64,000 bases of DNA from Roseovarius sp. M141 (GTDB lineage Bacteria; Pseudomonadota; Alphaproteobacteria; Rhodobacterales; Rhodobacteraceae). Location: positions 2,046,001 to 2,110,000 of the forward strand of contig NZ_VCNH01000008.1 of the NCBI RefSeq assembly GCF_024355225.1, read 5' to 3'. Under the pieces are notes generated by a model. It saw only the letters and a list, made by a program, of their open reading frames with translations, had not been told where the DNA came from and searched no databases. Every line of letters begins with the position of its first letter. Positions within the stretch are counted from its first letter, which is position 1. Position numbers and translations under genes: made by a program. Shown in pieces: positions 9,636 to 53,481 of this stretch.

Positions 9636-10573
9636 TTTGCGGCCTTTTCTATGGTGAAATTACGTTTTGCCAGGTGCAGCCCGGCGATCATGCACCGGAC
9701 AGATCCGCCGGCGGCCTCGATGGTGGGGATGTCCAGCGGCACGATGCGGGTGGACCGTTCAATCATTGCGATCTGGCCTTTGTCGAGGGCCGCCAGCGCG
9801 CGCGAGGATATCGCCGTCATCAGTCCGGTTGGTGTGCTCAGCTCGATCGCGTTGCCTGCGAACTGGGCGATCTGCGCGTGCGTCAGGTCGATCACGTCGC
9901 GGCCCGGCTCGGCCAGACGCGCGGCGATATCGGCGCGGCGGTCGTTATTCTCAATCATGTCGAGGCTGACCATCGCGAAATGCGTGCCGATCGCCATGAT
10001 GACATTGGTATGATAGACGGGCGCGCCGCCCTCGTCGATGGCATCGAACACCATCGGCTCGTAGCCGAAATTGGTGCAGAACCGCTCGAGTAAAATCGGA
10101 TCGGCGCGGTGCGAGCGCGCGACATAGGCGATGCGCCCGATATGGTCGATCACCATCGCGCCGGTGCCTTCCAGCGCCAGTCCGTCCTGTTCCAGCCCCG
10201 AATAATCGGTGACGACCTGCACGCGATACTCGCGTTTCAGCATCTCGATCACGTCCTCGCGCCGCTCGCGGCGACGCGACGGCACGAACATCGGATAAAT
10301 GGCAACATGGCCGCCCGGATGGGTGGAAAACCAGTTGTTCGGGAACACCGCGTCGGGGGTGTCGTCGCGTTCGTCCTGAAACACATGCACGCCGACCCCC
10401 TCATCGCGCAGGCGCTGCACGGCCGTGTCGAATTCGCTCCAGGCATTTGCGGCGACCTCGTCCGCGCCGAGCGTCGGCAGAGACTGAAACCGATTGTCCG
10501 CTGCCGTCTCGGGGTTTGGATGAAACCTGTTGGGGCGGATCATCACCACGTTGGAGGGCGCCTGAACGGTCAT
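9632..10573 (-). CDS. ctlX: CtlX-like amidinotransferase-superfamily hydrolase
   Basis: 313 residues, guanidine-modifying superfamily (arginine deiminase / dimethylargininase fold). Candidate catalytic residues are visible: acidic and Asn residues in DAVFPNNWFSTHPGG (about 75-88), His188 in PVYHTNVIMAIG and the nucleophilic Cys294 in GGSVRCMIAG. It overlaps both neighbours by 4 bp in an arginase-ornithine cyclodeaminase operon. The family is called citrulline utilisation hydrolase by annotation convention, but the substrate here is not proven; citrulline, arginine or methylated arginine are all possible. Confidence 0.8.
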   Translation of the reverse strand: MTVQAPSNVVMIRPNRFHPNPETAADNRFQSLPTLGADEVAANAWSEFDTAVQRLRDEGVGVHVFQDERDDTPDAVFPNNWFSTHPGGHVAIYPMFVPSRRRERREDVIEMLKREYRVQVVTDYSGLEQDGLALEGTGAMVIDHIGRIAYVARSHRADPILLERFCTNFGYEPMVFDAIDEGGAPVYHTNVIMAIGTHFAMVSLDMIENNDRRADIAARLAEPGRDVIDLTHAQIAQFAGNAIELSTPTGLMTAISSRALAALDKGQIAMIERSTRIVPLDIPTIEAAGGSVRCMIAGLHLAKRNFTIEKAAK

Positions 10574-28938: not shown

Positions 28939-29820
28939 TCAGGAAAGCATTTTTTCGACGGTTTCGCCAAAGGTTGACGGGGTGGGAACGATGGTGACGC
29001 CTGCGCCTGACAGGATCTCGACCTTTTCCTGCGCCGACTCGCCGAAGGCTGACACGATTGCGCCCGCATGCCCCATGCGTCGACCCTTGGGGGCCGAGAG
29101 GCCCGCGATATAGGCCGCGACAGGCTTTTTCATGTGATCGCGGATGTATTCCGCGGCCTCGGCCTCTTGCGGGCCGCCGATTTCACCGACCATGACGACT
29201 GCATCAGTTTCGGGATCATTCTCGAACAGCTCCAGAATATCACGGAAGGACGAGCCGTTGATCGGATCGCCGCCGATGCCGATAGAGCTGGACACACCGA
29301 TCCCGCGCGACTTCATCTGGCTGGCAGCCTCATAGCCCAGCGTGCCCGACCGGCCCACGATGCCGACACGGCCCGGCAGGTAGATCGCGGGCGGCATCAG
29401 ACCGGCAAAGGCCTGACCCGGCGTGATGATCCCGGCGCAGTTCGGCCCGATCAGACGCATGCGCTTTTCTTCCTTGTAGCGGCGCATGTAGCGTTTGACG
29501 CGGATCATGTCCTGCGTGGGGATGCCATCGGCGATGCAAACGCAGGTGCTGATGCCCGCATCGGCCGCTTCCATGATGCTATCCGCCGCAAAGGGGGGCG
29601 GCACGAAGGCGATGACCAAATCGGCGCCGGTTTCGGCGACCGCGCCCTTGACGGTGTTGAATACTGGCAGACCGTTATGCGTGGTCCCGCCTTTGCCGGG
29701 GGTCACGCCGCCGACGACATTGGTGCCGTAATCACGCATTTCCTGCGCATGAAAGCTGCCGATACGGCCCGTCAGGCCGGTGACCAGCACCTTGGAGTTC
29801 TTGTCGATCAGGATGGCCAT
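28939..29820 (-). CDS. mtkB: Malate-CoA ligase (malate thiokinase) alpha subunit
   Basis: 293 residues, homologous to the succinyl-CoA ligase alpha subunit. N-terminal CoA-binding Rossmann fold (LVTGLTGRIGSFHAQEMRDY), GPNCAGIITPGQ, and the active-site phosphohistidine region GRRMGHAGAIVSAFG. In the serine cycle this enzyme activates malate to malyl-CoA for MclA. The assignment to malate rather than succinate rests on position: it follows mtkA with a 4-bp overlap and mclA lies just upstream. A TCA-cycle sucCD pair would normally sit with other TCA genes. Confidence 0.88.
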   Translation of the reverse strand: MAILIDKNSKVLVTGLTGRIGSFHAQEMRDYGTNVVGGVTPGKGGTTHNGLPVFNTVKGAVAETGADLVIAFVPPPFAADSIMEAADAGISTCVCIADGIPTQDMIRVKRYMRRYKEEKRMRLIGPNCAGIITPGQAFAGLMPPAIYLPGRVGIVGRSGTLGYEAASQMKSRGIGVSSSIGIGGDPINGSSFRDILELFENDPETDAVVMVGEIGGPQEAEAAEYIRDHMKKPVAAYIAGLSAPKGRRMGHAGAIVSAFGESAQEKVEILSGAGVTIVPTPSTFGETVEKMLS

Positions 29821-31010
29821 CAGATTGCCTCCGCATTCTTGGTTGATGCCTTTTTCCAGGCCGCGACGACCTTTTCCGCCGCCTCTGCCAGCGTTTCGGC
29901 GGTGGTGATGTTCAGCCCGCTTTCGTTCAGCAGCTTGCGGCCCTCTTCCACGTTGGTGCCCGACAGGCGGACGACCAGAGGCATGGTCAGCTTCAGCTCC
30001 TGCACCGCGCGCACGACGCCCTCGGCGATCCAGTCGCAGCGGTTGATGCCGGCAAAGATGTTGACCAGGATCGCCTCGACATTGGGATCGTTCAGAACCG
30101 CCTTGAACGACATCAGCACGCGCTCGGGACTGGCCCCGCCGCCGACGTCGAGGAAGTTGGCAGGCTCGCCGCCCGACATCTTGATCATGTCCAGCGTCGC
30201 CATCGCCAGACCCGCACCGTTGACGATGCAGCCGATTTCGCCCTCAAGGCCGATATAGCTGAGGCCGCGATCCTCGGCATAGGTTTCGCGCGAATCCTCT
30301 TGGCTTTTGTCGCGCAGCTCGGAAATGTCCGGGTGGCGGAACAGCGCGTTGTCGTCAAAGCTGAGCTTGGCATCGAGCGCCACGATCTCGCCCGATCCGG
30401 TGACGACCAGCGGGTTGATTTCCAGCATGGAGGCGTCCAGTTCGTCCATCGCCTTGTAGCAGCCGGTGATCTGCTTGACCGCCTGCGGGATCAGCGCGGC
30501 ATCAAGGCCCAGCTGAAATGCGATTTCGCGCGCCTGGAAGGCCTGCATACCCACAGCCGGATCGACGACCGAGCGGATGATGCTGTCCGGCTCGTCCTCG
30601 GAGATGTCTTCGATCTCCATCCCGCCCTGGGCGGAGGCGACGACGACGACGCGCTCCTCGGTGCGGTCCATGACAAAGCCCAGGTAGATTTCCTGCGCGA
30701 TGTCGGTGGCTTCCTCGATATAGAGGCGGCCGACCAGCTTGCCCTGCGGACCGGTCTGGTGCGTGACCAGCTTGCGGCCCAGCATCCAGGCGGCGGCATC
30801 GGCGATTTCGTCATCCGTGCTGCAAATCCGCACGCCGCCGGCCTTGCCGCGGGCGCCGGAATGGATCTGGGCCTTGACGACGCATTTTTCGCCGGACAGT
30901 TCCTGCGCGCGGTAAACCGCCTGTTCGGGGCTGTAGGCGATGCCGCCGCGCGGCACGTTGACGCCGAATTTCTTCAGCAGCTCCTTGGCCTGATATTCGT
31001 GAATATCCAT
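29820..31010 (-). CDS. mtkA: Malate-CoA ligase (malate thiokinase) beta subunit
   Basis: 396 residues with an N-terminal ATP-grasp domain and a C-terminal CoA-ligase domain. Typical stretches are [20 protein letters not shown] at the start, [15 protein letters not shown] in the ATP site and [20 protein letters not shown] further on. Partner of the alpha subunit, which begins in an overlap with its stop. The start at 31010 matches the family N-terminus; the longer frame is an artefact. Together they catalyse ATP-dependent malyl-CoA formation in the serine cycle. Confidence 0.88.
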
Positions 31011-31020
31011 TTTGTTTCCC

Positions 31021-31956
31021 TCAGCCCTTGGCTGCGATGGCATCGGCCACCGCCAGCACGTTCTGCGCCATACGCTCGGAGGCGGCATCGATCAGCCGAC
31101 CGTCGAGGTTTGCAGCGCCCTTACCTTGCTTTTCCGCCTCGCGAAGCGCTTCGATGATGCGGCGCGCGCGGGTCACTTCCTCCTCGGGGGGCGAGAACAT
31201 TTCGTTTGCCAGTTTGATCTGGCTGGGGTGGATGGCCCATTTGCCTTCGATACCCAGAGCAGCGGCACGTTTTGCCGATGCGACATAGGCGTCGGGATCA
31301 CTGAAATCACCGAACGGTCCGTCGATGGCGCGCAGGCCGTAGGCCCGGCAGGCGCCGTTCATGCGGGAGATGGCGTAATGCCACTGATCGCCCGGATAAT
31401 CGGGGTTCAGGCCACCGATGACCACGGTGCGGGCGCGGGTGAAGGCCGCGTAGTCGCCAACGCCAAAATGCATCGCCTCAAGACGGCCGGGCGCAGCGGC
31501 AATCGCCTCGACGTTGGCCATGCCAAGGGCGGTTTCGATCAGTGCTTCAAGGCCGATCTGGTGCTTGAAGCCCTTGGCCACTTCGATCTGGCTGAGCATC
31601 GTCTCGACGCAGTAGAGATCGCCGGGAACGCCGACCTTGGGCACCAGAATCGTGTGGATATGCTGGCCGGCTTGCTCGACGATATCGACGACGTCGCGGT
31701 ACATGTAATGCGTGTCGAGTCCGTTGATACGGATCGACATGGTCTTGCCTTTCCAGTCGATGTCGTTCAGCGCCTGGATGATGTTCTTGCGCGCCTGCTC
31801 TTTGTCGGAGGGCGAGACGGCGTCCTCAAGATCGAGGAAGATGTAATCGACATCGCTGTTGGCGGCCTTTTCGAACATCTCGGTGTTCGAACCTGGCACA
31901 GCCAGTTCGGACCGCTGTAGACGCTGTTTTTTCAGCGGGTGCAAAGTATAGCTCAT
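31021..31956 (-). CDS. mclA: Malyl-CoA lyase, serine-cycle type
   Basis: 311 residues, HpcH/CitE family TIM barrel. Cleaves malyl-CoA to acetyl-CoA and glyoxylate. It reads much like the Methylobacterium MclA type: [54 protein letters not shown] and [16 protein letters not shown], with the magnesium-binding acidic residues present. The start at 31956 has a GGAGG-type site. First gene of a separate mclA-mtkA-mtkB unit, with a candidate operator about 110 bp upstream. Confidence 0.9.
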
Positions 31957-32065
31957 GGTGTTTCCTCCCTTGGAATACGTCGTCCCTTGAAAGGTGCCGG
32001 ATTGCGTCCACGCCAGACACTTTCGCATGGGTAGCAATGCAGGGCCGGGGTTGGGAAAGGGCCGC

Positions 32066-32091
32066 GAACGGGTAGGGCGCACTACCCGGTG
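32066..32091. promoter_or_regulatory. Candidate operator upstream of mclA
   Basis: Inverted repeat CGGGTAG (32069-32075), 6-bp spacer GGCGCA, CTACCCG (32082-32088), flanked by GAA on the left and GTG on the right. A near-identical copy lies between sgaA and the LuxR-type gene at 34487-34513. It ends about 110 bp upstream of the mclA start. Confidence 0.65.
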
Positions 32092-32187
32092 TCCGCGCGT
32101 TCGTATGCGGTGGAGTGCGGAATGCGCGGGAGTTGAAGCGCCCCACGTGGCGGTCGGTCATCTTCCAGATGCGGGGGAGGTGAAACG

Positions 32188-32219
32188 CAACATGCCCCGG
32201 CTGGTGCCGGGGCATGTTG
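32188..32219 (-). terminator. Hairpin terminator after hprA
   Basis: Perfect 13-bp stem CAACATGCCCCGG / CCGGGGCATGTTG with a 6-base loop, about 20 bp past the end of the minus-strand hprA gene and upstream of mclA. It separates the sgaA-hprA and mclA-mtkA-mtkB units. Confidence 0.7.
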
Positions 32220-32239
32220 AAGTCGTGGTTAAACGGGTG

Positions 32240-33202
32240 TCAGACGATTTTATCGGGCGGCGTATCGCCTTTCAGGAAGGCCTCCAGATTGTCGATGGCG
32301 CGGTGCCCCATCGCTGCGCGTGTACCGCCTGTCGCGCTGCCCAAGTGAGGGGCCAGCACGAGATTCTCATGCTTCAGAAAGCGCGGATCGAGCTTTGGCT
32401 CACCCTGATAGACATCAAGGCCGGCACCGCCCAGATGCCCGGTGTTCAGCGCCGCAAATAGCGCGTCCTCATCGACCACGTCACCGCGGGCAGTATTGAT
32501 CAGGATCGCGCCGGGCTTCATCGCGGCAAAGATATCCGTACTGATCAGATGCCGCGTATCGGCGCCGCCGGGGCAATGCAGCGACAGGAAATCGCTGACC
32601 TCGGCGACCTCGGCGACGCTGGCCAGCTGCGTGGCGCCGTATTGCGCGGCAAGCTCGGGTGCGACGCGGCTGCGGTTCTGGAACACCACCTTCATGCCGA
32701 AACCATGATGCGCCCGCTGCGCCATCGCCTGTCCGATTCGGCCAAAGCCAATGATGCCCAGCGTGGCGCCCGCCACCTTGTGCCCGATCAGATGCGTGGG
32801 GCGCCAGCCGTCCCAGCGGCCTGCGCGCAGCTCGCGCTCGCCCTCGCCCAGACGGCGGGCCGCGGCCAGAAGCAAGCCCATCGCCAGATCAGCGGTGCAA
32901 TCGGTCAGCACGCCGGGGGTGTTGGTCACGGTGATGCCCGCCGCCTCGGCGGCGGCGACGTCGATATGGTTGTAGCCGACACCGTAGTTGGCCAGCAGGC
33001 GGACCTTGCCCTTGGCCGCGTCGTAGAATCCGGCCGGGATACTGTCAGACACCGTCGGAAGGATGACGTCATAGCGGGTCGCGGCCTCCATCCATTCGGT
33101 TTCGGTCATCGCCGTGTCGGGATCGCGGAACGTCGCCTCGCACACTTGTGCGAGGCGGTCCTGCGTTCCCTTGGGCCAGGCGCGGGTGACTAGGGCGCGC
33201 AC
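32240..33202 (-). CDS. hprA: Hydroxypyruvate/glyoxylate reductase (D-2-hydroxyacid dehydrogenase)
   Basis: 320 residues from a GTG start immediately after the sgaA stop with a G-rich ribosome-binding site. The NAD(P)-binding fold shows GIIGFGRIGQAMAQRAHHGF, and the catalytic Arg, Glu and His positions fit INTARGDVVDEDALFAAL, GLDVYQGEPKLDPRF and APHLGSATGGTR. Reduces hydroxypyruvate to D-glycerate in the serine cycle, downstream of the transaminase encoded by sgaA. The order sga-hprA is the classic serine-cycle order. Confidence 0.9.
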   Translation of the reverse strand: MRALVTRAWPKGTQDRLAQVCEATFRDPDTAMTETEWMEAATRYDVILPTVSDSIPAGFYDAAKGKVRLLANYGVGYNHIDVAAAEAAGITVTNTPGVLTDCTADLAMGLLLAAARRLGEGERELRAGRWDGWRPTHLIGHKVAGATLGIIGFGRIGQAMAQRAHHGFGMKVVFQNRSRVAPELAAQYGATQLASVAEVAEVSDFLSLHCPGGADTRHLISTDIFAAMKPGAILINTARGDVVDEDALFAALNTGHLGGAGLDVYQGEPKLDPRFLKHENLVLAPHLGSATGGTRAAMGHRAIDNLEAFLKGDTPPDKIV

Positions 33203-33206
33203 CGGC

Positions 33207-34385
33207 TCAGCCCCCGACGCTGCGGTAATGTGCTTGCGCAGCAGCCACGCCCGAGCCCAGCTCGATCTTGGCACCCGAATCGACCAGCGCCATTTCAGCG
33301 GCTGAAATCGCGCCCAGCAGCATGACCGGGTTGAGCGATCCCAGATGACCGATGCGGAACGCCTTGCCTGCCAGCTTGTTCAGGCCGGTGCCCAGCGACG
33401 TCTGGTATTTGGAATAGGCATGCGCGATGACATCGCGCGCATCCACGCCCTCGGGGGTGTAGATGGCCGACACCGTGTCCGAGGCCCATTCGGGGCCGCG
33501 CGCCACCAATTCGCAACCATCCCAAGCGGCGACAGCGCGGCGCACGCCCTCGGCGTGGAATGTGTGACGCGTCCAGATCGCTTCCAGCCCCGCGTCCAGC
33601 ATCATGTCCAGCGATGTGCGCAGACCGCGCAGCAGCTGCGTGGCGGGCGTATAGGGGAAGTAGCCGGTGTCGTTCAGCTTGATCATGTCTTCCCAGCTGA
33701 AATAGCAGCGGTTCATTTTGTTCGTGTTCGACGCGTTAGCGGCCAGCGCCTTGTCGCTTGCGGCCAGAAAGCCAAGGCCGGCGGGCAGCATGAAGCCCTT
33801 TTGCGAGCCGGACACAGCCAGATCGACGCCCCATTTTTCCATCTCGAATTCGATCGATCCGATCGAGCTGACACCGTCGACGAACAACAGGGCAGGATGC
33901 CCGGCATCGTCCAGCGCCTTGCGCACGCCGGCGACATCCGATGACACGCCCGTCGCCGTTTCGTTCTGAGTGGCAAAGACGGCCTTGATCTTGTGATCCG
34001 TGTCCGCCTTGAGCCGCTTGGCGTATTCTTCGACGGGCACGCCCTTGCCCCATTCGACATCACACAGGTCGACCTTCAGGCCCAGCCGCTCGGCCATGTC
34101 GACCCAAAGCAGCGAGAACTGGCCAAAGCGCGACATCAGGACGGTGTCGCCCTCGCTCAGCGTGTTGGTGATGGCCGATTCCCACGCTCCGGTGCCCGAG
34201 GATGGAAAGATGAAGACGCGGCCTTTTTCCAGCCGGTACACTTTTTTCAGATCGGTCAGCAGGCCGGTCACAAAATCAGCGAAATCGGGCGCGCGCATAT
34301 CCTCCATTGGGATATTCATGGCGCGGCGCACCTCTTCGGGGACGTTTGTGGGGCCGGGGATGAATAGATGGGAATTGCCGCGCAT
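33207..34385 (-). CDS. sgaA: Serine-glyoxylate aminotransferase
   Basis: 392 residues, class V aminotransferase with PLP. The PLP lysine lies in AVSGSQKGFMLPAGLGFL; SSIGSIEFEMEKWGVD precedes it and HLFIPGPTNVPEEVRRAMNI opens the protein. It moves the amino group of serine to glyoxylate, giving hydroxypyruvate and glycine, and so returns the C2 acceptor to the cycle. Start preceded by GGAGAGAT. An inverted-repeat operator candidate lies about 100 bp upstream, shared with the divergent LuxR-type gene. Confidence 0.95.
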   Translation of the reverse strand: MRGNSHLFIPGPTNVPEEVRRAMNIPMEDMRAPDFADFVTGLLTDLKKVYRLEKGRVFIFPSSGTGAWESAITNTLSEGDTVLMSRFGQFSLLWVDMAERLGLKVDLCDVEWGKGVPVEEYAKRLKADTDHKIKAVFATQNETATGVSSDVAGVRKALDDAGHPALLFVDGVSSIGSIEFEMEKWGVDLAVSGSQKGFMLPAGLGFLAASDKALAANASNTNKMNRCYFSWEDMIKLNDTGYFPYTPATQLLRGLRTSLDMMLDAGLEAIWTRHTFHAEGVRRAVAAWDGCELVARGPEWASDTVSAIYTPEGVDARDVIAHAYSKYQTSLGTGLNKLAGKAFRIGHLGSLNPVMLLGAISAAEMALVDSGAKIELGSGVAAAQAHYRSVGG

Positions 34386-34486
34386 GATATCTCTCCTGTT
34401 GGTTGCCCCTATTTATGAGAGCTGAGTACCGGGCGCGAAATCCCCGAGAGTATGGGCTTGGCCGCCAGCTGTCGCCGAGGGGCACC

Positions 34487-34513
34487 GAACGGGTAGTGCG
34501 GCGCTACCCGGTG
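34487..34513. promoter_or_regulatory. Candidate operator between sgaA and the LuxR-type regulator
   Basis: Inverted repeat CGGGTAG (34490-34496), 7-bp spacer TGCGGCG, CTACCCG (34504-34510), with the same GAA and GTG flanks as the copy at 32066-32091. It lies about 102 bp upstream of sgaA and 120 bp upstream of the regulator start, in the divergent interval. Confidence 0.65.
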
Positions 34514-34632: not shown

Positions 34633-35259
34633 ATGAGCAAACCTGACCTACACATATCCCGTATCATCGTTGCGGACCGCCAGTTGATCGTTTGCCAAGG
34701 CATCGGATCGCTTGTTGGTCAGATACCGGGCACCGAACTGGGCGAGTTTGCCACCGATCTGGAAGGGCTCCGGCGCCTGCTGGCCGCCGAGACGGGGCGC
34801 GTGATCGTAATTTTGGGCGTGCGGTTGGCCGATTGCGATGTGGCGAGCGCGTTGGATATGCTGCGGCGCGATTTCCCTGCGGCGCTGGTCGTTGTGGTGG
34901 CTGACGATACTGAATTCGCGTTCATTCGTGCAGCGATCAAATCGGGTGCCAATTCGGTTTGCATGATGGGTCAGATCCTGATCAGCCTGCCCAAGATCCT
35001 GGGCAAGTTGGTCGAGGGACATTCCATTGTACCGACAGATATCCTGCGGCGCCTGACATCGGAGACGACACACGCGCTGTCGCGGCGCGAGCATGAGATA
35101 CTGGGCCTGCTGGTAAACGGGCTGACGAATTTTCAGATCTCGGCCCGGCTGGGCCTGTCGGAGAACACCGTCAAATATTATCTCAAGGCGATCTATCAAA
35201 AGCTCGACGTGAATTCGCGTGGCGGCGCCATCGCCAAATACGTCGCCGGGAATTACTGA
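34633..35259 (+). CDS. LuxR-family regulator with a non-canonical receiver domain
   Basis: 208 residues. An N-terminal receiver-like domain ([20 protein letters not shown] onward) has Gly where the phospho-acceptor Asp is expected ([13 protein letters not shown]), so ordinary phosphorylation looks unlikely. A LuxR HTH closes the protein ([20 protein letters not shown] and [16 protein letters not shown]). It is divergent from sgaA across a palindrome that also stands upstream of mclA, suggesting it controls the serine cycle. Starts at 34615 or 34522 are possible; the ribosome-binding site is weak for each. Confidence 0.82.
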
Positions 35260-35941: not shown

Positions 35942-37987
35942 TTACCCGCGCCGTCTGCGCCGCCGACCCCCATCGCTGTCACCGCCCGAGCCTGCGTTGA
36001 AGTTGGGGTTGGGCAGGGTGGTGATCTTGGCCAGTTCCGGGAACGGCTCGGTCTTGTGTGGGATCGCGTTGGCGGCGACAAAATGCTCTTGGAACTTCGG
36101 CTCGATTGCCGTTTCGACCTTGTGGATTTCGCCCACCATGCGCTCGATTTCGGCGCGGGCGCCGATGTTGCACAGCGCGATGCGCGCGCCGGTGCCGGCC
36201 GCGTTTCCGGCTGACGTCACCTTGCTCAGATGCGCATCCGGGATCATGCCCAGTACCATCGCGTGCAGGTTCGAGATATGGGCGCCAAACGCGCCGGCCA
36301 GCACAATGCGGTCCACCTTGTCGACGCCGCGCGCGTCCATCAGTAGCCGCGCGCCGGCATAGAGCGCGGATTTAGCCAGCTGAATCGCGCGAATGTCGCC
36401 TTGGGTCACGGTGATGCGCGGGCCGCCCACCGCGGTGGAATCGTGTACCAGATAGCTGTGCGTGCGCCCCTCTGGCACCATGCGCGCGGTGCCTGTCGCC
36501 TCGGCCGAGCCCATCAGACCGTTTTCATCCAGCAGCCCTGCCATGCGCAGTTCGGCCACCGCCTCGATGATGCCCGACCCGCAGATGCCGGTGATGCCCG
36601 AGGCACCGACGGCCGTCTCAAAGCCGGGATCGTCCGACCAGAGATCGCTGCCGATAACGCGAAAGCGCGGCTCTTTGGTCACCGGATCGATGCGGATGGC
36701 ATCAATGGCGCCGGGCGCGGCGCGCTGACCGGATGAGATTTGCGCCCCCTCGAACGCTGGCCCGGTGGGGGACGAGCAGGCCAGAACGCCCTGTTTGTCA
36801 CCGAGGAGGATTTCGGCGTTGGTGCCCACATCGATGATCAGCACCAGATCATCCGATTTGCCCGGCTGTTCGGACAGTGCCACAGCTGCGGCGTCGGCGC
36901 CGACATGGCCTGCGATACAGGGCAGGATATAGATGCGGGCGCGGTCGTTGATTGCGGTGATGTCCATCTCGCGCGCGTCGATGGAAATGCTCTTCGAGGT
37001 GGCCAGCGCAAAAGGCGCCTGACCCAGCTCGACCGGGTCGATGCCCAGCAGCAGGTGGTGCATGACCGGGTTGCAGACGATCACCGTCTCGACGATCAGG
37101 TTTGGTGCAATCTCGGCCTCCTTGGCGATTTCCTCGGCCAGGGTATTGATCGCCTCGCGCACGGCGCGGGTCATTTCGACGTCGCCGCCGGGGTTCATCA
37201 TGGAATAGCTGACGCGGCTCATCAGATCCTCGCCAAAGCGGATCTGCGGATTCATGATGCCCGAGGATGCGATGACGGCGCCGGTGTGCAGATCGGTCAG
37301 GTGCGCCGCGACGGTGGTCGAGCCGAGGTCGATGGCCAGCCCGTAAAGGCCGCTTTCATGCAGACCCGGCCATATTTCCAGCACGCGGGCGACGTCGTCG
37401 TCATGCGCCTTGTTCATTGCGACAGTCACCTGCCATTTGCCCTTGCGCAGCACCGGTTGCAGCTTGGACAGCAGTGACAGATCGGCGCGAATGGCGGGGA
37501 CGTCCCATTGCTGTTTCAGCGCGCGGGCCAGACGTTCCAGATCGCCGGTGGGCTCGTGCATGTCAGGTTCGTCGACCTGCACCATGTAAAGGCGCGTGGC
37601 CGGGTCCATTTCGATGGCGCGGGTGGACGCGGCCTTGCGCACGATCTGACGGTGAAGCTGGGATTCGGGCGGCACGTCGATCACGACGTCGCCCTGCACG
37701 GTGGCCTGACAGCCAAGGCGGCGACCGGCCTTCAGTCCGCGCTTGTCCTCATAGCGCTGCTCGACCGAGTTCCATTCAGACAGCGCATCTGCGGCGACGG
37801 TCACGCCATGCTTGGAGAATTCGCCATAACTGGGCGTGATCTGGCATTTCGAGCAGATGCCCCGCCCGCCGCACACGGAATCCAGATCGACCCCCAATTG
37901 CCGCGCGGCTGTCAGAACCGGCGTGCCAACGGGAAAGCGGCCACGTTTGCCGGACGGGGTAAAGACGACGAGGGGATCGGTGCTCAT
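35942..37987 (-). CDS. RACo-like ASKHA protein: reductive activator of corrinoid protein
   Basis: 681 residues. The N-terminal [2Fe-2S] ferredoxin domain carries Cys39, Cys45 and Cys48 (SVCGGRGICSKC) and Cys93 (GRRLGCQATV). A linker precedes a C-terminal ASKHA ATPase (AIDLGSTTVAAHLTDLHTG, IIDVGTNAEILLGD, GSGIIEAVAELRMAGLLDE). Such proteins use ATP to put inactive Co(II) corrinoids back into the Co(I) state. The C-terminus ends in a Gly/Arg-rich tail (GGRRRRRRG), as does the methyltransferase near 60 kb. No corrinoid-binding protein or MttB-type methyltransferase gene is in the window, so its partners must be encoded elsewhere. Confidence 0.88.
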   Translation of the reverse strand: MSTDPLVVFTPSGKRGRFPVGTPVLTAARQLGVDLDSVCGGRGICSKCQITPSYGEFSKHGVTVAADALSEWNSVEQRYEDKRGLKAGRRLGCQATVQGDVVIDVPPESQLHRQIVRKAASTRAIEMDPATRLYMVQVDEPDMHEPTGDLERLARALKQQWDVPAIRADLSLLSKLQPVLRKGKWQVTVAMNKAHDDDVARVLEIWPGLHESGLYGLAIDLGSTTVAAHLTDLHTGAVIASSGIMNPQIRFGEDLMSRVSYSMMNPGGDVEMTRAVREAINTLAEEIAKEAEIAPNLIVETVIVCNPVMHHLLLGIDPVELGQAPFALATSKSISIDAREMDITAINDRARIYILPCIAGHVGADAAAVALSEQPGKSDDLVLIIDVGTNAEILLGDKQGVLACSSPTGPAFEGAQISSGQRAAPGAIDAIRIDPVTKEPRFRVIGSDLWSDDPGFETAVGASGITGICGSGIIEAVAELRMAGLLDENGLMGSAEATGTARMVPEGRTHSYLVHDSTAVGGPRITVTQGDIRAIQLAKSALYAGARLLMDARGVDKVDRIVLAGAFGAHISNLHAMVLGMIPDAHLSKVTSAGNAAGTGARIALCNIGARAEIERMVGEIHKVETAIEPKFQEHFVAANAIPHKTEPFPELAKITTLPNPNFNAGSGGDSDGGRRRRRRG

Positions 37988-46412: not shown

Positions 46413-47477
46413 ATGACCAGCCAAGCGTCGGCCAAACTCCCGACGGTCCATGATCTGATTGCTGCAATTCCCTCGCCGACGCTTGTCATTGATCGCGCCG
46501 AAAAGGTTGTGACCTTGAATGATGCCGCCGAGGTGTTTCTGGGCAAAAGCGTTGCGGGACGGCATTTCACCACTGCCTTTCGTCACCCCAAGCTGGTGGA
46601 GGCGGTCGAACTTGGGCTGCTGGATCGCACGCCCCGAAAGGTATCATATCAGATTGTCGAAAACGGCAGTGACGCCTTCTATGATGTGCATTTGCGGGCG
46701 ATTGGGGACAGCGGGCTGTTGCTTCTCAGCTTTCAGAACGCGACGGGCCTGGCCCAGGCCGAGCAGATGCGCCGCGATTTTGTTGCCAATGTCAGTCATG
46801 AATTGCGCACGCCCCTGACTGCCGTCACGGGTTTTATCGAAACCTTGCGAAATTCTGCCCGGAACGATGCTGAGGCGCGAAGCCGTTTTCTGAGCATCAT
46901 GGCGGGCGAGGCTGACCGCATGAACCGCCTTGTGGGTGAATTGCTGACGCTTAGCCGGGTCGAAGCGGATGAGCGGGTGCGCCCGACCGTGCAGTTGGAC
47001 CTGCGGGATGTGTTACAGGCCACGCTGCGCAACCTCGGCACGTTGGCGCAGGAGCGCGCTGTATCGTTGCGTTACGATCCGGGGCAGGGTCCATTGCCCG
47101 TCATTGGCGATTCAGATCAATTGTTGCAGGTCTTTACTAATCTTGTCGAGAACGCGATCAAATATGGCGGGGCCGATCAATCGGTCGAGGCGACCGCCCG
47201 CAAGATTGCACATGATCCGGTTCTTCGTGGCCCCGCGATAGAGGTCACGATTGCCGACCATGGGCCCGGCATTGATCCCATTCACCTGCCGCGCCTGACC
47301 GAGCGGTTTTATCGCGCTGACAGCCATCGCAGCCGTGAGTTGGGCGGCACCGGGCTGGGCCTTGCGATTGTGAAACATATTCTGAACCGGCACCGGGGAC
47401 GGTTGAGGATTACCAGCCAGCCGGGGCAGGGATCTCAGTTCACCGTTATTCTGCCGCCCGATTCGGGCGACATCTGA
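46413..47477 (+). CDS. phoR: Phosphate-regulon sensor histidine kinase PhoR
   Basis: 354 residues. N-terminal PAS domain (SPTLVIDRAEKVVTLNDAAE), HisKA domain with the phospho-acceptor His in NVSHELRTPL, then the ATPase with N-box NLVENAIKYGG, G1 DHGPGI and G2 GGTGLGLAIVKH. No clear membrane anchor is present, unlike E. coli PhoR. It stands directly upstream of pstS with a Pho box between, followed by pstCAB, phoU and phoB, the usual Rhodobacteraceae order. Confidence 0.93.
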   Translation: MTSQASAKLPTVHDLIAAIPSPTLVIDRAEKVVTLNDAAEVFLGKSVAGRHFTTAFRHPKLVEAVELGLLDRTPRKVSYQIVENGSDAFYDVHLRAIGDSGLLLLSFQNATGLAQAEQMRRDFVANVSHELRTPLTAVTGFIETLRNSARNDAEARSRFLSIMAGEADRMNRLVGELLTLSRVEADERVRPTVQLDLRDVLQATLRNLGTLAQERAVSLRYDPGQGPLPVIGDSDQLLQVFTNLVENAIKYGGADQSVEATARKIAHDPVLRGPAIEVTIADHGPGIDPIHLPRLTERFYRADSHRSRELGGTGLGLAIVKHILNRHRGRLRITSQPGQGSQFTVILPPDSGDI

Positions 47478-47509
47478 TACCCGGTGCAGAAATGCGCCCC
47501 AGCCTGCAT

Positions 47510-47540
47510 CTGTCATGAAACTGTAACGAACCTGTCGCAA
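47510..47540 (+). promoter_or_regulatory. Pho box upstream of pstS
   Basis: Three successive 10-11 bp direct repeats, CTGTCATGAA, CTGTAACGAA and CTGTCGCAAA, each beginning CTGT, matching the PhoB-binding pattern. The site is 110-80 bp upstream of the pstS start. Confidence 0.88.
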
Positions 47541-47619
47541 AACCGAAGCGTTGCGCGCGGATAAGCGCGCCAGGATCACCGTGGGGGTGATCTTTGATCC
47601 GGAACTGACAGGAGCCTTC

Positions 47620-48657
47620 ATGTCATTCGCAAAACTTACTCTTTCCACGCTGGCCGGTGTTGCCGTCACGGCCACTGCCGCCTATGCCCGCGACAATGTA
47701 CAGGTGGCAGGATCGTCCACTGTCCTGCCCTATGCGGCGATCGTCGCCGAGGCATTCGGGGAAAATTTCGACTTTCCGACGCCGGTGGTTGAATCGGGCG
47801 GATCCTCTGCCGGGCTCAAGCGGTTCTGTGCGGGCGTCGGCGAGAACACGGTGGATATTGCCAATTCCAGCCGTCCGATAAAATCGTCCGAGGTCGAAGC
47901 CTGCGTTGAAAACGGTGTGACCGATATCATCGAGGTGCGCATCGGTTATGACGGGATCGTCTTTGCCAGCGATATCAACGGCAACAGTTTCGCCTTTACG
48001 CCTGCCGACTGGTATATGGCCCTGGCCGCCGAGCTGCCAACGAGCGAGGGCATGGCCGCCAATTCCAGCACCAACTGGAACGTGCTGAATAGTGATCTGC
48101 CCGATCAGCCGATCAGGGCCTTCATTCCGGGGACCAAGCATGGCACCCGCGAAGTGTTTGAGGAAAAGGTGCTGCTGCAAGGCTGCCGCGACAGCGGCGC
48201 GCTGGATGCGATCATGACGATCAACGGCGGTGACGAAGACGCGGCCGAGACCGCCTGCATGACGGTCCGCACCGATGGTCTGTCGGTTGATATCGACGGC
48301 GACTATACCGAAACGCTGGCCCGGATCGAGGCGGATGCAAACGGGATCGGTGTGTTCGGGCTGTCGTTCTATGAGAACAACACCGACAAGTTGCAGGTGG
48401 CCACCATGTCCGGCGTCGTGCCGAACACCGAAAGCATCGCCGCCGGTGAATACCCTGTGTCGCGCCCGCTGTATTTTTACGTCAAAGCCGCCCATCTGGG
48501 TGTGATCCCGGGCTTGCAGGACTTCGCAGAATTCTTCGTGAGCGATGAAATCGCGGGCCCGGACGGACCGCTGGCCGAATACGGTCTGGTGTCCGACCCC
48601 GAGCTGACGGCCACTCAGGATGCCGTGGTTAATCACACGCTGCTTGGCGGTATGTAA
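47620..48657 (+). CDS. pstS: Phosphate ABC transporter substrate-binding protein PstS
   Basis: 345 residues, periplasmic. Signal peptide (KLTLSTLAGVAVTATAAYA) then VQVAGSSTVLPYAAIVAEAF and VESGGSSAGLKRFC, the phosphate-binding loops. The Ser, Thr and Asp residues expected in the site occur in GTKHGTREVFEEKVL and nearby. The start at 47620 has GGAG upstream. Under PhoB control from the adjacent Pho box. A hairpin after the gene can cap abundant pstS message relative to pstC. Confidence 0.94.
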   Translation: MSFAKLTLSTLAGVAVTATAAYARDNVQVAGSSTVLPYAAIVAEAFGENFDFPTPVVESGGSSAGLKRFCAGVGENTVDIANSSRPIKSSEVEACVENGVTDIIEVRIGYDGIVFASDINGNSFAFTPADWYMALAAELPTSEGMAANSSTNWNVLNSDLPDQPIRAFIPGTKHGTREVFEEKVLLQGCRDSGALDAIMTINGGDEDAAETACMTVRTDGLSVDIDGDYTETLARIEADANGIGVFGLSFYENNTDKLQVATMSGVVPNTESIAAGEYPVSRPLYFYVKAAHLGVIPGLQDFAEFFVSDEIAGPDGPLAEYGLVSDPELTATQDAVVNHTLLGGM

Positions 48658-48665
48658 GGTTGAAT

Positions 48666-48693
48666 GCGGGGCCGACCGTTGGGTTGGCCCCGC
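48666..48693 (+). terminator. Attenuator-like hairpin between pstS and pstC
   Basis: GCGGGGCCGACC pairs with GGTTGGCCCCGC (one G-T wobble) across a 4-base loop, beginning 8 bp after the pstS stop and 26 bp before pstC. It fits the common need to keep pstS message higher than the membrane genes. Confidence 0.6.
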
Positions 48694-48718
48694 GACCATC
48701 CATGGGAAAGCTGCCTTG

Positions 48719-49945
48719 ATGTGGGTTTTTGATATCGTCTTTTCATTGCCGGTTCTGGTGGCCGGTCTGGCCCTTGCGGGGCTGATCGGCGCAAGGGCAC
48801 GGGCACGTATCGCAGCGGGCGGTGACATTCGCACGTTGGCGGCGCTGCCCAAGGCGCACGCAGCGAACGCGGTTCTCAGCGTATTGGTGCCGACGATTGC
48901 CAGCTATGCGGCGCTGTCCGTTGTCCGGTTGATCGGGCATCAGCAGGGTGTTGAAACCCTGTCCGCAGGGGCCGTTTTCTGGGCGGTGCTGGCGGTTGGC
49001 GCTATCGGGTGTTTCGGCGCAATCGTGCGATCCTCAGCCGGGTTTCGCGCCCGCGTCGCATCCGAGGCCTGGATAAAATCGCTGTTGATCGCCGCATCGA
49101 CCGTCGCGATCCTGACCACCCTTGGCATCGTGTTGTCGATGGTGTCCGAAACGCTCCAGTTTTTTCACCAATACGACTGGCGCGATTTTTTCTTTTCCGC
49201 TGACTGGGCTCCCAATTTTCGCGGCAACAGCGCGCTCGGCATTCTGCCGCTGCTTTGGGGTACTCTTTATGTCAGCTTTATCGCGTTGATGGTGGCGGTG
49301 CCGGTGGGCCTGTTTGCGGCGATTTACCTGTCTGAATATGCCGGGCCGCGGATGCGTGGCGTCGCCAAGCCGCTGATCGAGGTTCTTGCCGGGATTCCGA
49401 CGATTGTTTACGGGCTTTTTGCCCTGATCACCGTCGGCCCGTTGCTGCGGGACTATTTCGCACAGCCCCTTGGGCTGGGGGACAGCGCGTCGTCGGTCAT
49501 GACGGCGGGGCTGGTCATGGGAATCATGCTGATCCCTTTCGTGTCGTCGCTATCGGACGATACCATCAACTCCGTGCCGCAGACGATGCGTGACGGTTCT
49601 TATGCAATTGGCGCCACCCGGTCCGAGACAATCCGCCAAGTGGTCATCCCCGCCGCCTTGCCCGGCATTGTCGGGGCCGTGCTGCTGGCGGCCAGCCGCG
49701 CCATCGGAGAAACGATGATTGTGGTGCTGGGGGCCGGGGCCGCCGCCCGCCTGTCGCTGAATCCGTTCGAGGCGATGACGACCATCACCGTCAAGATCGT
49801 CAGCCAGCTGACCGGCGATACCGACTTTGCCAGCCCGGAAACGCTGGTGGCCTTCGCCCTCGGGCTGACGCTGTTCACCTTTACGCTGGGGCTGAACGTG
49901 CTGGCCCTGATGATTGTGCGCAAATATCGGGAACAATACGAATGA
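48719..49945 (+). CDS. pstC: Phosphate ABC transporter permease PstC
   Basis: 408 residues. Begins with a long N-terminal segment holding extra helices (WVFDIVFSLPVLVAGLALAG), longer than in E. coli, followed by the six-helix permease core. The EAA loop is around SYAIGATRSETIRQVVIPAA. The start at 48719 is preferred since upstream codons are inside the hairpin; a TTG one codon earlier is possible. The stop overlaps pstA (ATGA). Confidence 0.92.
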   Translation: MWVFDIVFSLPVLVAGLALAGLIGARARARIAAGGDIRTLAALPKAHAANAVLSVLVPTIASYAALSVVRLIGHQQGVETLSAGAVFWAVLAVGAIGCFGAIVRSSAGFRARVASEAWIKSLLIAASTVAILTTLGIVLSMVSETLQFFHQYDWRDFFFSADWAPNFRGNSALGILPLLWGTLYVSFIALMVAVPVGLFAAIYLSEYAGPRMRGVAKPLIEVLAGIPTIVYGLFALITVGPLLRDYFAQPLGLGDSASSVMTAGLVMGIMLIPFVSSLSDDTINSVPQTMRDGSYAIGATRSETIRQVVIPAALPGIVGAVLLAASRAIGETMIVVLGAGAAARLSLNPFEAMTTITVKIVSQLTGDTDFASPETLVAFALGLTLFTFTLGLNVLALMIVRKYREQYE

Positions 49946-51270
49946 TAAAAGTGGCAAATTCCCTGTTGGTCAGTGATCAGCGCACCCGGCGGCGCAACGC
50001 GGCAGAAGCGCGGTTTCGCACCTATGGGCTGGGTGCGATTGGCATCGCGGCAGTGGCGCTGATCCTGTTGCTGACGTCAGTCGTCTCCAACGGTGTCGGC
50101 GCGTTTCGCCAGACCTATATCACGCTGGAAATCCCCTTGCCCGAGGCGAAGCTGGACAAATCTGGGCAGCGCGATCCGTCCGTCATGGCGAAGGTCACGA
50201 CATTTGGCTACGCGCCCCTGCTGCGGGACGCGCTGTTGCAGCAACTGAAGGCGTCCGGTATCACCACCGCCCTTCCGGGCAAAGACGTCGGCGCGATGAT
50301 CAGCAAGGAGGCGGCGGCGAGTGTGCGCGATCATGTGCTGGCAAACCCCGATCTGGTCGGCGGTACGGTGGTGATGGATGTTCTGGCCGAAGGGCGGATT
50401 GACGGATATTTCAAGGGCCGGGTCACGGTGGAAAGCGCCGCACTGGACGCCAACACCTCGCCCGAGGCGCTGCAAATCGCCCAAAGCCTTGCCGATGCCG
50501 GTGTGATCAAGACGCGGTTCAACTGGCAGTTCCTGACCGCCCCCGACGCCAGCGATCAGCGGCCCGAGGCGGCGGGTCTGGGGGTCGCCCTGCTGGGATC
50601 GCTGTACATGATGCTGGTCGTGCTGGTGCTGGCGCTGCCCATCGGGGTCGCCGCGTCGATCTATCTGGAGGAGTTTGCGCCGAAAAACAGGTTCTCCGAC
50701 CTGATCGAGGTGAATATCAGCAATCTGGCCGCCGTGCCGTCGATTGTCTTCGGCATCCTTGGGCTTGCGATCTTTATCAATTTCGCGGGCTTGCGACAAT
50801 CCTCGCCGCTGGTCGGGGGGCTGGTGCTGACGCTGATGACGCTGCCGACGATCATCATCACGACCCGCGCCGCGCTGAAAGCGGTGCCGCCGTCGATCCG
50901 CGATGCCGCCCTGGGCGTGGGGGCCAGCAAGATGCAATCGGTGTTCCACCATGTCCTGCCGCTGGCCGCGCCGGGTATCCTGACCGGCACCATCATCGGG
51001 CTGGCTCAGGCCTTGGGTGAAACCGCACCGTTGCTGTTGATCGGCATGGTCGCCTTTGTGCGCGAATATCCGGCGCCCTACAGCGAGAGCGCCGGGTTGT
51101 TCGGAGAGGCGGCGACAGCGCTGCCAGTGCAGGTCTTTAACTGGACGCAACGGGCTGATCCCGGTTTTGCCGAACGCGCCTCGGGGGCGATCATCACGTT
51201 GCTGGTGTTCCTCGCGGTGATGAACACGGTGGCCGTATTGCTGCGCCGCCGATTTGAACGCCGCTGGTAG
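49942..51270 (+). CDS. pstA: Phosphate ABC transporter permease PstA
   Basis: 442 residues, unusually long because a periplasmic loop of roughly 150 residues follows the first helix ([20 protein letters not shown]). The permease core is in the C-terminal half, with the EAA loop near [20 protein letters not shown]. Long-loop PstA proteins of this kind are seen in Rhodobacteraceae. It pairs with PstC in the channel; start overlaps the pstC stop. Confidence 0.92.
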
Positions 51271-51283
51271 GGTAGAGAATGAC

Positions 51284-52081
51284 ATGAAAGACACTAATAT
51301 GACCGAAACTGTCGGCGCCATGGCCGGGCAGAAGATATCAGCAACCAACGTGCAGGTGCGCTATGGAGATACCATCGCCATCAAGGACGTCTCGGTGGAC
51401 ATCGCTCCCAACACGGTAACCGCCTTTATCGGGCCATCCGGGTGCGGCAAATCCACCTTCTTGCGCTGTCTGAACCGGATGAACGACACGATTGAAATCT
51501 GCCGGGTGACGGGGGATATCCGCATCGATGACGAGGATATCTATGATCGCCGCGTTGACCCTGTGCAACTGCGCGCCAAGGTCGGGATGGTGTTTCAGAA
51601 ACCCAACCCGTTTCCGAAATCCATCTTTGACAACGTCGCGTATGGCCCGAAAATTCACGGGCTGGCCCGCAACAAATCCGACCTGAGTGATATCGTCGAG
51701 AACGCCCTGAGAAAGGCGGCGCTGTGGAACGAGGTCAAGGACCGGCTGGACAGTCCGGGCACAGGGCTGTCGGGGGGACAGCAGCAGCGCCTTTGCATCG
51801 CGCGCGCCATCGCCACGGCCCCTGAAGTGCTGCTGATGGACGAGCCTTGCTCGGCGCTGGACCCGATCGCAACCGCGCAGATCGAAGAGCTGATCGACGA
51901 TCTGCGGCAGAATTATTGCGTGGTGATCGTCACCCACTCCATGCAGCAGGCCGCGCGGATCAGCCAGAAGACGGCGTTTTTCCACCTTGGCACTTTGGTG
52001 GAATATGGCGATACCGACCAGATATTCACCGCCCCCCACGACCCAAGGACCGAAAGCTACATCACCGGCAGGATTGGATGA
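51284..52081 (+). CDS. pstB: Phosphate ABC transporter ATP-binding protein PstB
   Basis: 265 residues. Walker [10 protein letters not shown], signature [14 protein letters not shown], Walker [13 protein letters not shown] and the switch His in [13 protein letters not shown] are all intact. The start at 51284 is chosen by homology; upstream in-frame codons lie inside pstA. Powers PstCA and, with PhoU, reports phosphate status to PhoR. phoU follows 3 bp after the stop. Confidence 0.96.
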
Positions 52082-52084
52082 GCC

Positions 52085-52792
52085 ATGAAGAATGAACATA
52101 TATCGTCGGCTTTCGACACCGATCTGGAGGTAGTTCAGGCGCAGATCATGAAAATGGGCGGGCTGGTCGAAGACGCCATCCGCCTTGGCATGAAGTCTTT
52201 GGAAACCCGCGATGCGGAGCTTGCCCAGCAGGTGCGCGCCGCAGACGCTGGCATCGACGCCCTCGAAGAGACAATCAACGAAGGCGCCGCCCGCATCATC
52301 GCCTTGCGCGCCCCGACCGCGATTGACCTGCGCCTGATTCTGAGCGTGATCAAGATCAGCGGCAATCTGGAGCGGATCGGCGACTACGCCAAGAACATGG
52401 CCAAACGATGCCAGGTTCTGTCCGGCGCCGAGCCGATCAGTGACAGCATAGGCACCCTTCGCCGCATGACACGCGCCGTCGAGATGATGCTGAAGGATGC
52501 GCTGGATGCCTATATCCATCACGATGCGGCACTGGCCGCGGATGTGATTGCGCGCGATGTGGATGTGGATCAGATGTATAATGCGCTGTTTCGCGAATTG
52601 CTTACCTTCATGATGGAGGATCCGCGCAATATCACTGCCTGCCTGCATCTGCATTTCATCTCCAAGAACACCGAACGCATGGGGGATCACGTGACATCGA
52701 TTGCTGAGCAGGTCATCTATCTGGCGACCGGCAAGCAACCGGACGAGGCGCGGCCAAAGGCAGATACGACATCGTCAGAATCAGGGGTTTAG
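52085..52792 (+). CDS. phoU: Phosphate-signalling complex protein PhoU
   Basis: 235 residues, two similar three-helix repeats. The first contains VQAQIMKMGGLVEDAIRLGM; the paired metal-binding motifs are near LERIGDYAKNMAKRC and NTERMGDHVTSIAEQV. It joins the Pst transporter to PhoR and dampens kinase activity when phosphate is sufficient. The stop is 2 bp before phoB. Confidence 0.95.
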   Translation: MKNEHISSAFDTDLEVVQAQIMKMGGLVEDAIRLGMKSLETRDAELAQQVRAADAGIDALEETINEGAARIIALRAPTAIDLRLILSVIKISGNLERIGDYAKNMAKRCQVLSGAEPISDSIGTLRRMTRAVEMMLKDALDAYIHHDAALAADVIARDVDVDQMYNALFRELLTFMMEDPRNITACLHLHFISKNTERMGDHVTSIAEQVIYLATGKQPDEARPKADTTSSESGV

Positions 52793-52794
52793 GC

Positions 52795-53481
52795 ATGTCA
52801 ATTATGCAGGCGCAGGTGCTGCTGGTCGAGGATGAGCCGGCCCAGCGCGAGGTGTTGATCTACAATCTGGAAGCCGAAGGGTTTGCCGTGCGCTGCGCCG
52901 AAAACGGCGAAGACGCCATGCTGATGGTTTCCGAGGCTTTGCCCGATCTGGTGATCCTCGACTGGATGATGCCGAAGGTCAGCGGTATCGAAGTCTGTCG
53001 CCAGCTCAAGACCCGCGACGACACAAGGCACATTCCCGTTATCATGCTGTCCGCGCGATCCGAAGAGGTCGATACGGTGCGCGGTTTGGAAACCGGCGCG
53101 GATGACTATGTGACAAAGCCGTATTCGGTGAATGAACTTATGGCGCGGGCACGCACGCAGCTACGGCGCACGCGTTCGGGGTCGGTCGTGGCGCTGTCCT
53201 TTCAGGATATCACCCTCGATCCCGAAAGCCATCGGGTCATTCGCGACGACCAAGACCTGAAGCTGGGGCCGGTCGAGTTTCGCCTTTTGACGCGGCTGAT
53301 GGAAAGGCCCGGCCGCGTTTTCAGCCGCGAGCAGTTGCTGGACCTTGTTTGGGGGCGCGATATATTTCTGGACACGCGCACGGTCGATGTTCACGTCGCG
53401 CGCCTGCGCAAGACGTTGACGCAACAGGGTGGCAGCGATCCCATCCGTACTGTACGTGGCGCGGGCTACGCGCTGGGGTGA
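52795..53481 (+). CDS. phoB: Phosphate-regulon response regulator PhoB
   Basis: 228 residues, OmpR/PhoB class. Receiver with acidic pocket (VLLVEDEPAQREVLIYNLEA), phospho-acceptor Asp in VILDWMMPKVSG and Lys in DYVTKPYSVNELMARA; the C-terminal winged helix includes LGPVEFRLLTRLMERPGRVF and RTVDVHVARLRK. It binds Pho boxes such as that upstream of pstS. Last gene of the cluster. Confidence 0.96.
   Translation: MSIMQAQVLLVEDEPAQREVLIYNLEAEGFAVRCAENGEDAMLMVSEALPDLVILDWMMPKVSGIEVCRQLKTRDDTRHIPVIMLSARSEEVDTVRGLETGADDYVTKPYSVNELMARARTQLRRTRSGSVVALSFQDITLDPESHRVIRDDQDLKLGPVEFRLLTRLMERPGRVFSREQLLDLVWGRDIFLDTRTVDVHVARLRKTLTQQGGSDPIRTVRGAGYALG

Follow-up and report, generated by a model that had tools for sequence, protein, structure and literature searches.

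The sgaA-mclA locus and its palindrome pair

The window analysed here is a stretch of 64,000 nucleotides from Roseovarius sp. M141 (contig NZ_VCNH01000008.1, positions 2,046,001 to 2,110,000). It carries the genes sgaA, hprA, mclA, mtkA and mtkB, in this order on the minus strand, next to a divergent LuxR-type regulator gene, here called luxR, on the plus strand. The subject of this work is a palindrome that occurs twice at this locus, once between sgaA and luxR and once before mclA. By their rarity, their upstream position and their conservation alongside the regulator, the two palindromes are probably the dedicated operators of a local regulon. The genes and operators are the following:

34633..35259 (alternative start 34615), plus strand: luxR, regulator of 208 residues with a degenerate receiver domain and a GerE helix-turn-helix (HTH)
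34487..34513 (core 34490-34510), no strand: operator O1-sga, CGGGTAG-N7-CTACCCG with GAA and GTG flanks, between sgaA and luxR
33207..34385, minus strand: sgaA, class-V aminotransferase, predicted to be of the serine-glyoxylate type
32240..33202, minus strand: hprA, 2-hydroxyacid dehydrogenase (Pfam)
32066..32091 (core 32069-32088), no strand: operator O1-mcl, CGGGTAG-N6-CTACCCG with GAA and GTG flanks, before mclA
31021..31956, minus strand: mclA, HpcH/HpaI-family lyase (Pfam)
29820..31010, minus strand: mtkA, malate-CoA ligase beta
28939..29820, minus strand: mtkB, malate/succinate-CoA ligase alpha

A first-pass annotation made from the letters alone had drawn attention to this repeat pair and its shared flanks. 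Both copies were found where it had placed them, with slight corrections to the distances: O1-mcl starts 110 base pairs (bp) before the start codon of mclA (ATG at 31956), the core of O1-sga lies 105 bp before the start of sgaA (34385), and the end of that core is 105-123 bp from the start of luxR, depending on whether 34615 or 34633 is used.

The same annotation had asked whether the motif might occur at random across the genome. No copy of the palindrome was found in 100 dinucleotide shuffles of the window, and in the 4.5-Mb genome only the two palindromes match with 0-1 mismatch in the 14 fixed bases (N6 or N7), so that the claim of a specific motif held. The next-best places in the N6/N7 scans number 20, each with 2 mismatches; 19 of them lie inside open reading frames (ORFs) of at least 150 residues and one is intergenic, a test that is only approximate given the high GC content of the genome. 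These places were rejected by position as extra members of the regulon. At the 3-mismatch level, among the matches listed, a reversed control pattern was more frequent than the motif itself in both the N6 and the N7 scan. The looser pattern GGGTAGN{5,9}CTACCC added one place, with an N8 spacer, on the same contig (3153451).

Conservation, transcription units and promoter geometry

Conservation of the motif upstream of sgaA and mclA in relatives was another point on which the claim could have failed. A scan of named genomes gave 56 loci encoding the regulator, mostly from Roseovarius, three of which are cut at the gene, leaving 53 usable with 400 bp upstream. Each of the 53 has a site in the 400 bp ahead of luxR, with no more than 1 mismatch in 51 and no more than 2 in the full 53, and no site with up to 1 mismatch was found in the remaining 657,691 bases once the luxR upstream stretches and the 260 bp before mclA or mtkA were excluded. 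The motif is thus conserved in relatives and nearly absent elsewhere.

A similar picture was obtained from 84 genomes of the genus Roseovarius. The exact N6/7 site is present in 60 of the 66 genomes with luxR versus 1 of the 18 without it, while the reversed control pattern has no such link (21/66 vs 4/18). The sole luxR-less genome with a site, G054, is 66% complete and has the site before mclA. By hand count, a close sgaA (at least 74% identity, two partial) was found in 62 of the 84 genomes, 61 of these with luxR; the other five luxR genomes retain just the mclA side or could not be assigned. Places of sites were gone through as far as G077, the per-genome counts being complete. Sites away from luxR in G045, G054, G063 and G073 lie before mclA on a separate contig. 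Further luxR-distant sites in G010 and G011 (about 230 bp before a thrS-like ORF), G053 and G072 were taken as chance, the cluster genes being absent within the 4-5.5 kb fetched.

The presence of the second operator follows the arrangement of the genes. Forty-six loci carry sgaA or hprA ahead of mclA, or ahead of mtkA if mclA is lacking. In this set a second operator is present in 26/26 loci in which the gap between these genes is at least 150 bp and in 0/20 in which it is shorter. The associated Fisher value of 1.8e-13 overstates the rule, because these are not unrelated loci and the cut-off was chosen with the gaps already known (43-79 bp versus 244-2221 bp, with no value near 150). Where mclA is missing at that place the second operator stands before mtkA (5/5 loci), and where sgaA is missing the operator is found between mclA and luxR (4/4 loci; 198 bp from mclA in locus L081). 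As the second operator tracks separate units, it behaves as an operator serving promoters. At the locus under study, one further feature bears on the unit boundary:

32188..32219, minus strand: hairpin after hprA, perfect over 14 bp and without a T-run, for which a terminator scan made no call

This hairpin is the probable end of the sgaA-hprA unit, from which it follows that mclA probably begins its own unit. Gene order also speaks to the suggestion that the palindromes are chance occurrences or a general genomic repeat. The reversed control does turn up 29 times in the 84 genomes, or roughly 0.35 times per genome, where the site itself is found 83 times, but the position of the sites, their conservation and the 26/26 versus 0/20 division leave this explanation with hardly any credibility.

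Distances from the operator to sgaA, mclA and mtkA were collected for sites starting 60-190 bp from a start codon. From the operator end to the start codon there are 100-115 bp for sgaA (50 promoters, one of them a duplicate), 107-145 bp for mclA (25) and 91-111 bp for mtkA (5), whereas the distance to luxR varies from 117 to 350 bp in 53 loci. That luxR would also control its own gene, as the first-pass annotation proposed, is not established by these distances.

When the promoters were aligned on the operator, a conserved block GGcgttt.c appeared 47-55 bp downstream of it in 50 sgaA promoters and another, GAAAGT.T, 46-53 bp downstream of it in 25 mclA promoters. Counted in the same way, 22 of the 25 mclA promoters also have an A at 75 bp together with T/A at 79 bp, most often T. 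Candidate promoter elements in the window, along with a weak third element that had been overlooked in the first-pass annotation, are:

34435..34440, minus strand: putative -35 of sgaA, TTTCGC, 51-56 bp after O1, in the conserved block
34412..34417, minus strand: putative -10 of sgaA, CATAAA, 74-79 bp after O1, weak
32014..32019, minus strand: putative -35 of mclA, TGTCTG, 51-56 bp after O1, in the conserved block
31991..31996, minus strand: putative -10 of mclA, CACCTT, 74-79 bp after O1, with A75 and T/A79
32029..32034, minus strand: weak second half-site, CTACCC on the gene strand, 41 bp downstream of O1-mcl on its mclA side

If the conserved blocks are read as -35 and -10 elements, the operator centre falls near -95. 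With a permissive TACCC search downstream of the operator, the second half-site was found 41 bp away in 25 of the 30 mclA or mtkA promoters. It is 40 bp away in one, 42 bp in another and 21 bp in two, and one promoter lacks it. The jump of 20 bp amounts to about two helical turns and suggests that the contact is helix-face dependent.

A perfect, G+C-rich inverted repeat might equally be expected of an RNA hairpin, such as an attenuator or terminator, and the palindromes could then have nothing to do with DNA binding. Across 80 sites, however, the arms keep their letters and not their pairing: three of the seven pairs are invariant, the outermost is often unpaired, and double changes preserving pairing within the six-base arms are seen in only 2 of the 80 sites. 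There is no Rfam match, and the sites lie upstream of the predicted promoters. On the Rfam result and the pattern of arm variation an RNA element was rejected, and we regard it as very improbable.

The same operator and regulator could also serve repression, with the LuxR-type protein holding off the operons (perhaps also its own gene) until an effector releases it. Divergent palindromic layouts of this kind, with luxR adjoining the site, are common for repressors, the promoters are themselves predictions, and the -10 of sgaA is weakly conserved. Against this, in both promoters some 50 bp, with little variation, separate the end of the site from the putative -35, the site does not lie over the promoter, and its distance to luxR is variable. 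The near-constant spacing between operator and -35-like block points to upstream (class-I-like) activation and not to blocking of RNA polymerase, and repression is considered unlikely.

The LuxR/NarL-type regulator and its proposed action

The C-terminus of the regulator matches the GerE/LuxR HTH (Pfam PF00196, 7.3e-18), which places it in the NarL/FixJ type of the LuxR superfamily. Its N-terminal part folds as a receiver domain in an AlphaFold2 (AF2) model (mean pLDDT, the model's confidence score, 87.8), and the nearest Foldseek structures are spr1814, RcsB and ChrA, but Pfam Response_reg gave no match at 1e-3. All 56 aligned sequences, a few duplicates among them, carry G or A at the phospho-acceptor position (NarL D59, here G62) and M, I or V at that of the switch lysine. 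To judge from these residues, the protein would not qualify as a phosphorylatable response regulator, and with both the aspartate and the switch lysine lost, control by a histidine kinase is unlikely. No autoinducer-binding domain was matched in Pfam and the N-terminal fold is receiver-like, so the protein was not classed as a quorum-sensing LuxR.

Among 43 orthologs the HTH is nearly invariant, including two at 42-43% identity that retain the operator, and cysteines C21 and C110 are invariant in the same alignment. In L129, which is 39% identical and stands outside this alignment, the HTH is more changed and the site is retained. The placement of L134, L135 and L129 in the tree is unsure because of their long branches, and no descent is claimed from it.

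These observations bear on whether some unlinked factor reads the palindrome, with the LuxR-type gene being a mere passenger. Site and luxR occur together in the genus (60/66 vs 1/18, as given above), luxR remains with the site where sgaA or mclA is lost, and conservation of the HTH goes along with that of the site. A family search covered 394 genomes, one per genus, with the best 7 candidates scored in each. The close regulator type was found in 5 of the 394, three of them at 39-43% identity, and any match at 1e-12 in 58. For 39 of these 58 an mclA homolog is located no more than 6 kb from the match, and most of the matches belong to a second type (type-B) that is about 30% identical.

A sample of 26 type-B genes was taken, comprising 21 genes of other genera, 14 of which have a listed mclA no more than 6 kb away, and five from Roseovarius without the close luxR (L178 partial). 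Sites resembling TGGGTRG-N8-CYACCCA (at most 2 mismatches, 200 bp scanned) were found in 18 of the 26, at 65-110 bp before the start, compared with an expectation of 0.1 from mononucleotide shuffles. By subset these are 8/14 of the mclA-near genes of other genera, 6/7 of the remaining ones and 4/5 of the Roseovarius genes (L174-L177), and N6/7 sites upstream of type-B regulators were found in 0/26. Spacer length therefore goes with regulator type, which argues against a passenger gene, and this explanation is rated improbable. A perfect TGGGTAG-N8-CTACCCA was also observed at L177 7544-7563, between mtkAB and luxR-mclA, in a Roseovarius with the other LuxR type and without the close luxR. In two clusters with a third regulator type (L228, L230), a divergent formate-tetrahydrofolate ligase gene adjoins the regulator, in line with a role in one-carbon (C1) metabolism.

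The LuxR-type neighbour is thus the likely reader of the operator pair. We consider it probable (about 0.74) that one dedicated factor, most likely this divergent LuxR/NarL-type protein, activates sgaA-hprA and mclA-mtkA-mtkB from about -95. We infer direct binding by the protein, the promoters with their start sites, the activation and the signal. A dimer would bind the GGGTAG/CTACCC half-sites with its centre about 95 bp upstream of the predicted starts of both units, and a further subunit would probably sit on the weak half-site 41 bp, or about four helical turns, nearer the mclA promoter. Since the receiver-like domain lacks the phospho-acceptor aspartate, the input is probably a metabolite, a redox cue or the protein's own level rather than a sensor kinase. 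That a single protein coordinates both units, as first proposed, is supported by conserved, operon-specific operators that co-occur with luxR, with the binding itself remaining a prediction.

A number of observations weigh against this account. The sgaA -10 is its weaker part: the corresponding columns are not conserved in the operator-anchored alignment, a NATANN element starting 73-76 bp after O1 is present in only 29 of 49 sgaA promoters (counted without a shuffled control), and a scan for consensus sigma-70-like promoters gave no match at the proposed sgaA and mclA promoter positions. The exact N6/7 site is missing in 6 of the 66 luxR genomes, among which a 1-mismatch check covered G042 only, plus related loci, and the genus and locus counts are phylogenetically non-independent. 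Eight of the 26 type-B genes (one, L178, partial) have no N8 site at up to 2 mismatches, seven of the 26 have no listed mclA in the surrounding 6 kb, and absences of LuxR in the family search are soft because only the best 7 candidates per genome were scored.

In other genera a different regulator may hold the position of luxR. From 48 genomes with mclA and no nearby LuxR match, 16 clusters with sgaA beside mclA (L212-L227) were picked, and in 15 of them a ScfR-like gene, recognised by an N-terminal signature among the longest ORFs only, stands divergent from sgaA at the place of luxR. Pfam ScfRs was confirmed in the three of these that were tested (L212, L216 and L226). A similar gene faces mclA in L189, L196 and L201, with ScfRs confirmed in L189 and L201 and the ORF of L196 being cut before the domain. 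It is conceivable, and put forward tentatively, that a pseudo-response regulator working independently of phosphorylation, with a receiver-like domain (C21, C110) that senses redox state or a metabolite of the pathway, took over control of sgaA-mclA-mtkAB at the divergent position of ScfR. If true, this would represent replacement of a regulator at a conserved central-carbon operon, and since one operon can have a regulator of either the LuxR or the ScfR type, such replacement is directly testable.

Pathway assignment and comparison with known systems

The first-pass annotation had called the genes a serine-cycle regulon, a label that stands in part. MtkA exceeds the curated cut-off of NF010647 (696 bits vs 604), and a glycerate-kinase-type gene (PF05161) is present in the genome. 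NCBIfam matches of hprA and mclA all fall under cut-off, and the mclA product is called malyl-CoA lyase because mtkAB adjoin it, so that the classical combination of MtkAB and malyl-CoA lyase is present with mclA assigned at family level only. On the other side, phosphoenolpyruvate (PEP) carboxylase PF00311, the only PEP carboxylase family searched, gave no match in this genome, the completeness of which is 100, against matches in 7 of 14 control genomes; the carboxylation step would therefore have to use another enzyme. We interpret the cluster as a serine-cycle-like glyoxylate and C1 module.

SgaA scores 569.5 bits against the BhcA family NF045640, below its cut-off of 650, and a separate BhcA (756.8 bits) is found elsewhere in the genome within a complete bhcABCD beta-hydroxyaspartate cluster (C8 2837938-2842308; L210 3939-8309), so two glyoxylate-assimilation modules coexist. 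Adjoining the regulator is a gene for a RACo/RamA-like corrinoid reductive activase (window 35942-37987, minus strand; under NCBIfam cut-offs), and 10 of the 56 named loci have such a gene in the vicinity of luxR. In Ruegeria pomeroyi, according to PMC12478193, a RamA is more abundant on N-osmolytes, and serine-cycle proteins increase on glycine betaine and choline.

Other genes in the window include a phosphate cluster (46413-53481, plus strand) with a PhoR-like kinase and PstS-like protein below cut-off and PstC, PstA, PstB, PhoU and PhoB above it. A choline/glycine betaine-type ABC transporter ATPase is encoded at 4313-7430 (plus strand) with a 626-residue permease, the halves of which match two permease families below cut-off. 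At 8580-10573 (minus strand) an ornithine cyclodeaminase adjoins the citrulline hydrolase CtlX, both above cut-off.

No LuxR-type serine-cycle regulator of the Rhodobacteraceae was found in the titles and abstract openings of the open-licence PMC papers listed by the searches, subscription journals being outside this scope. Four points are new here: the transcription-unit rule, an upstream geometry that is nearly fixed, the loss of the phospho-acceptor site, and the presence in other genera of an ScfR-type regulator where luxR stands. If the proposed activation is correct, a marine bacterial group controls C1 and glyoxylate assimilation by a regulator class not known for the pathway. Within the genus the operons have also been gained, lost and rearranged, which amounts to a natural experiment on the way in which operators track transcription units.

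The closest solved structures, NarL, RcsB, ChrA and spr1814, share the receiver-like fold and GerE HTH with the regulator, but NarL/FixJ response regulators possess the phospho-acceptor aspartate and switch lysine that are lost here. In Paracoccus aminophilus, DmfR is a LuxR-family activator of dimethylformamide degradation (PMC4543880). The portion of that article considered describes a LuxR-family activator of methylotrophy genes in a related genus, with other target genes, and it names no serine-cycle regulator. In PMC4344238, L-malyl-CoA lyase of Rhodobacter sphaeroides is placed in a cluster with a common inverted repeat, ascribed to an unidentified factor. Members of the ScfR family of acyl-CoA regulators (PccR, RamB, MccR) are unrelated to LuxR, and it is a ScfR-like gene that occupies the place of luxR in the clusters of other genera described above. 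In Methylobacterium, the LysR-type QscR regulates both main C1-assimilation operons and its DNA binding is metabolite-responsive (PMC3486813). The regulator adjacent to the operons here is of the GerE type and not of the QscR type, the search for a QscR homolog having been confined to this locus. The proposed job, control of C1-assimilation operons, would be the same, but the two proteins are set apart by family (LysR versus LuxR/NarL). If the proposed activation is correct, the regulon of Roseovarius would be compact, with two sites and a switch protein different from that of Methylobacterium.

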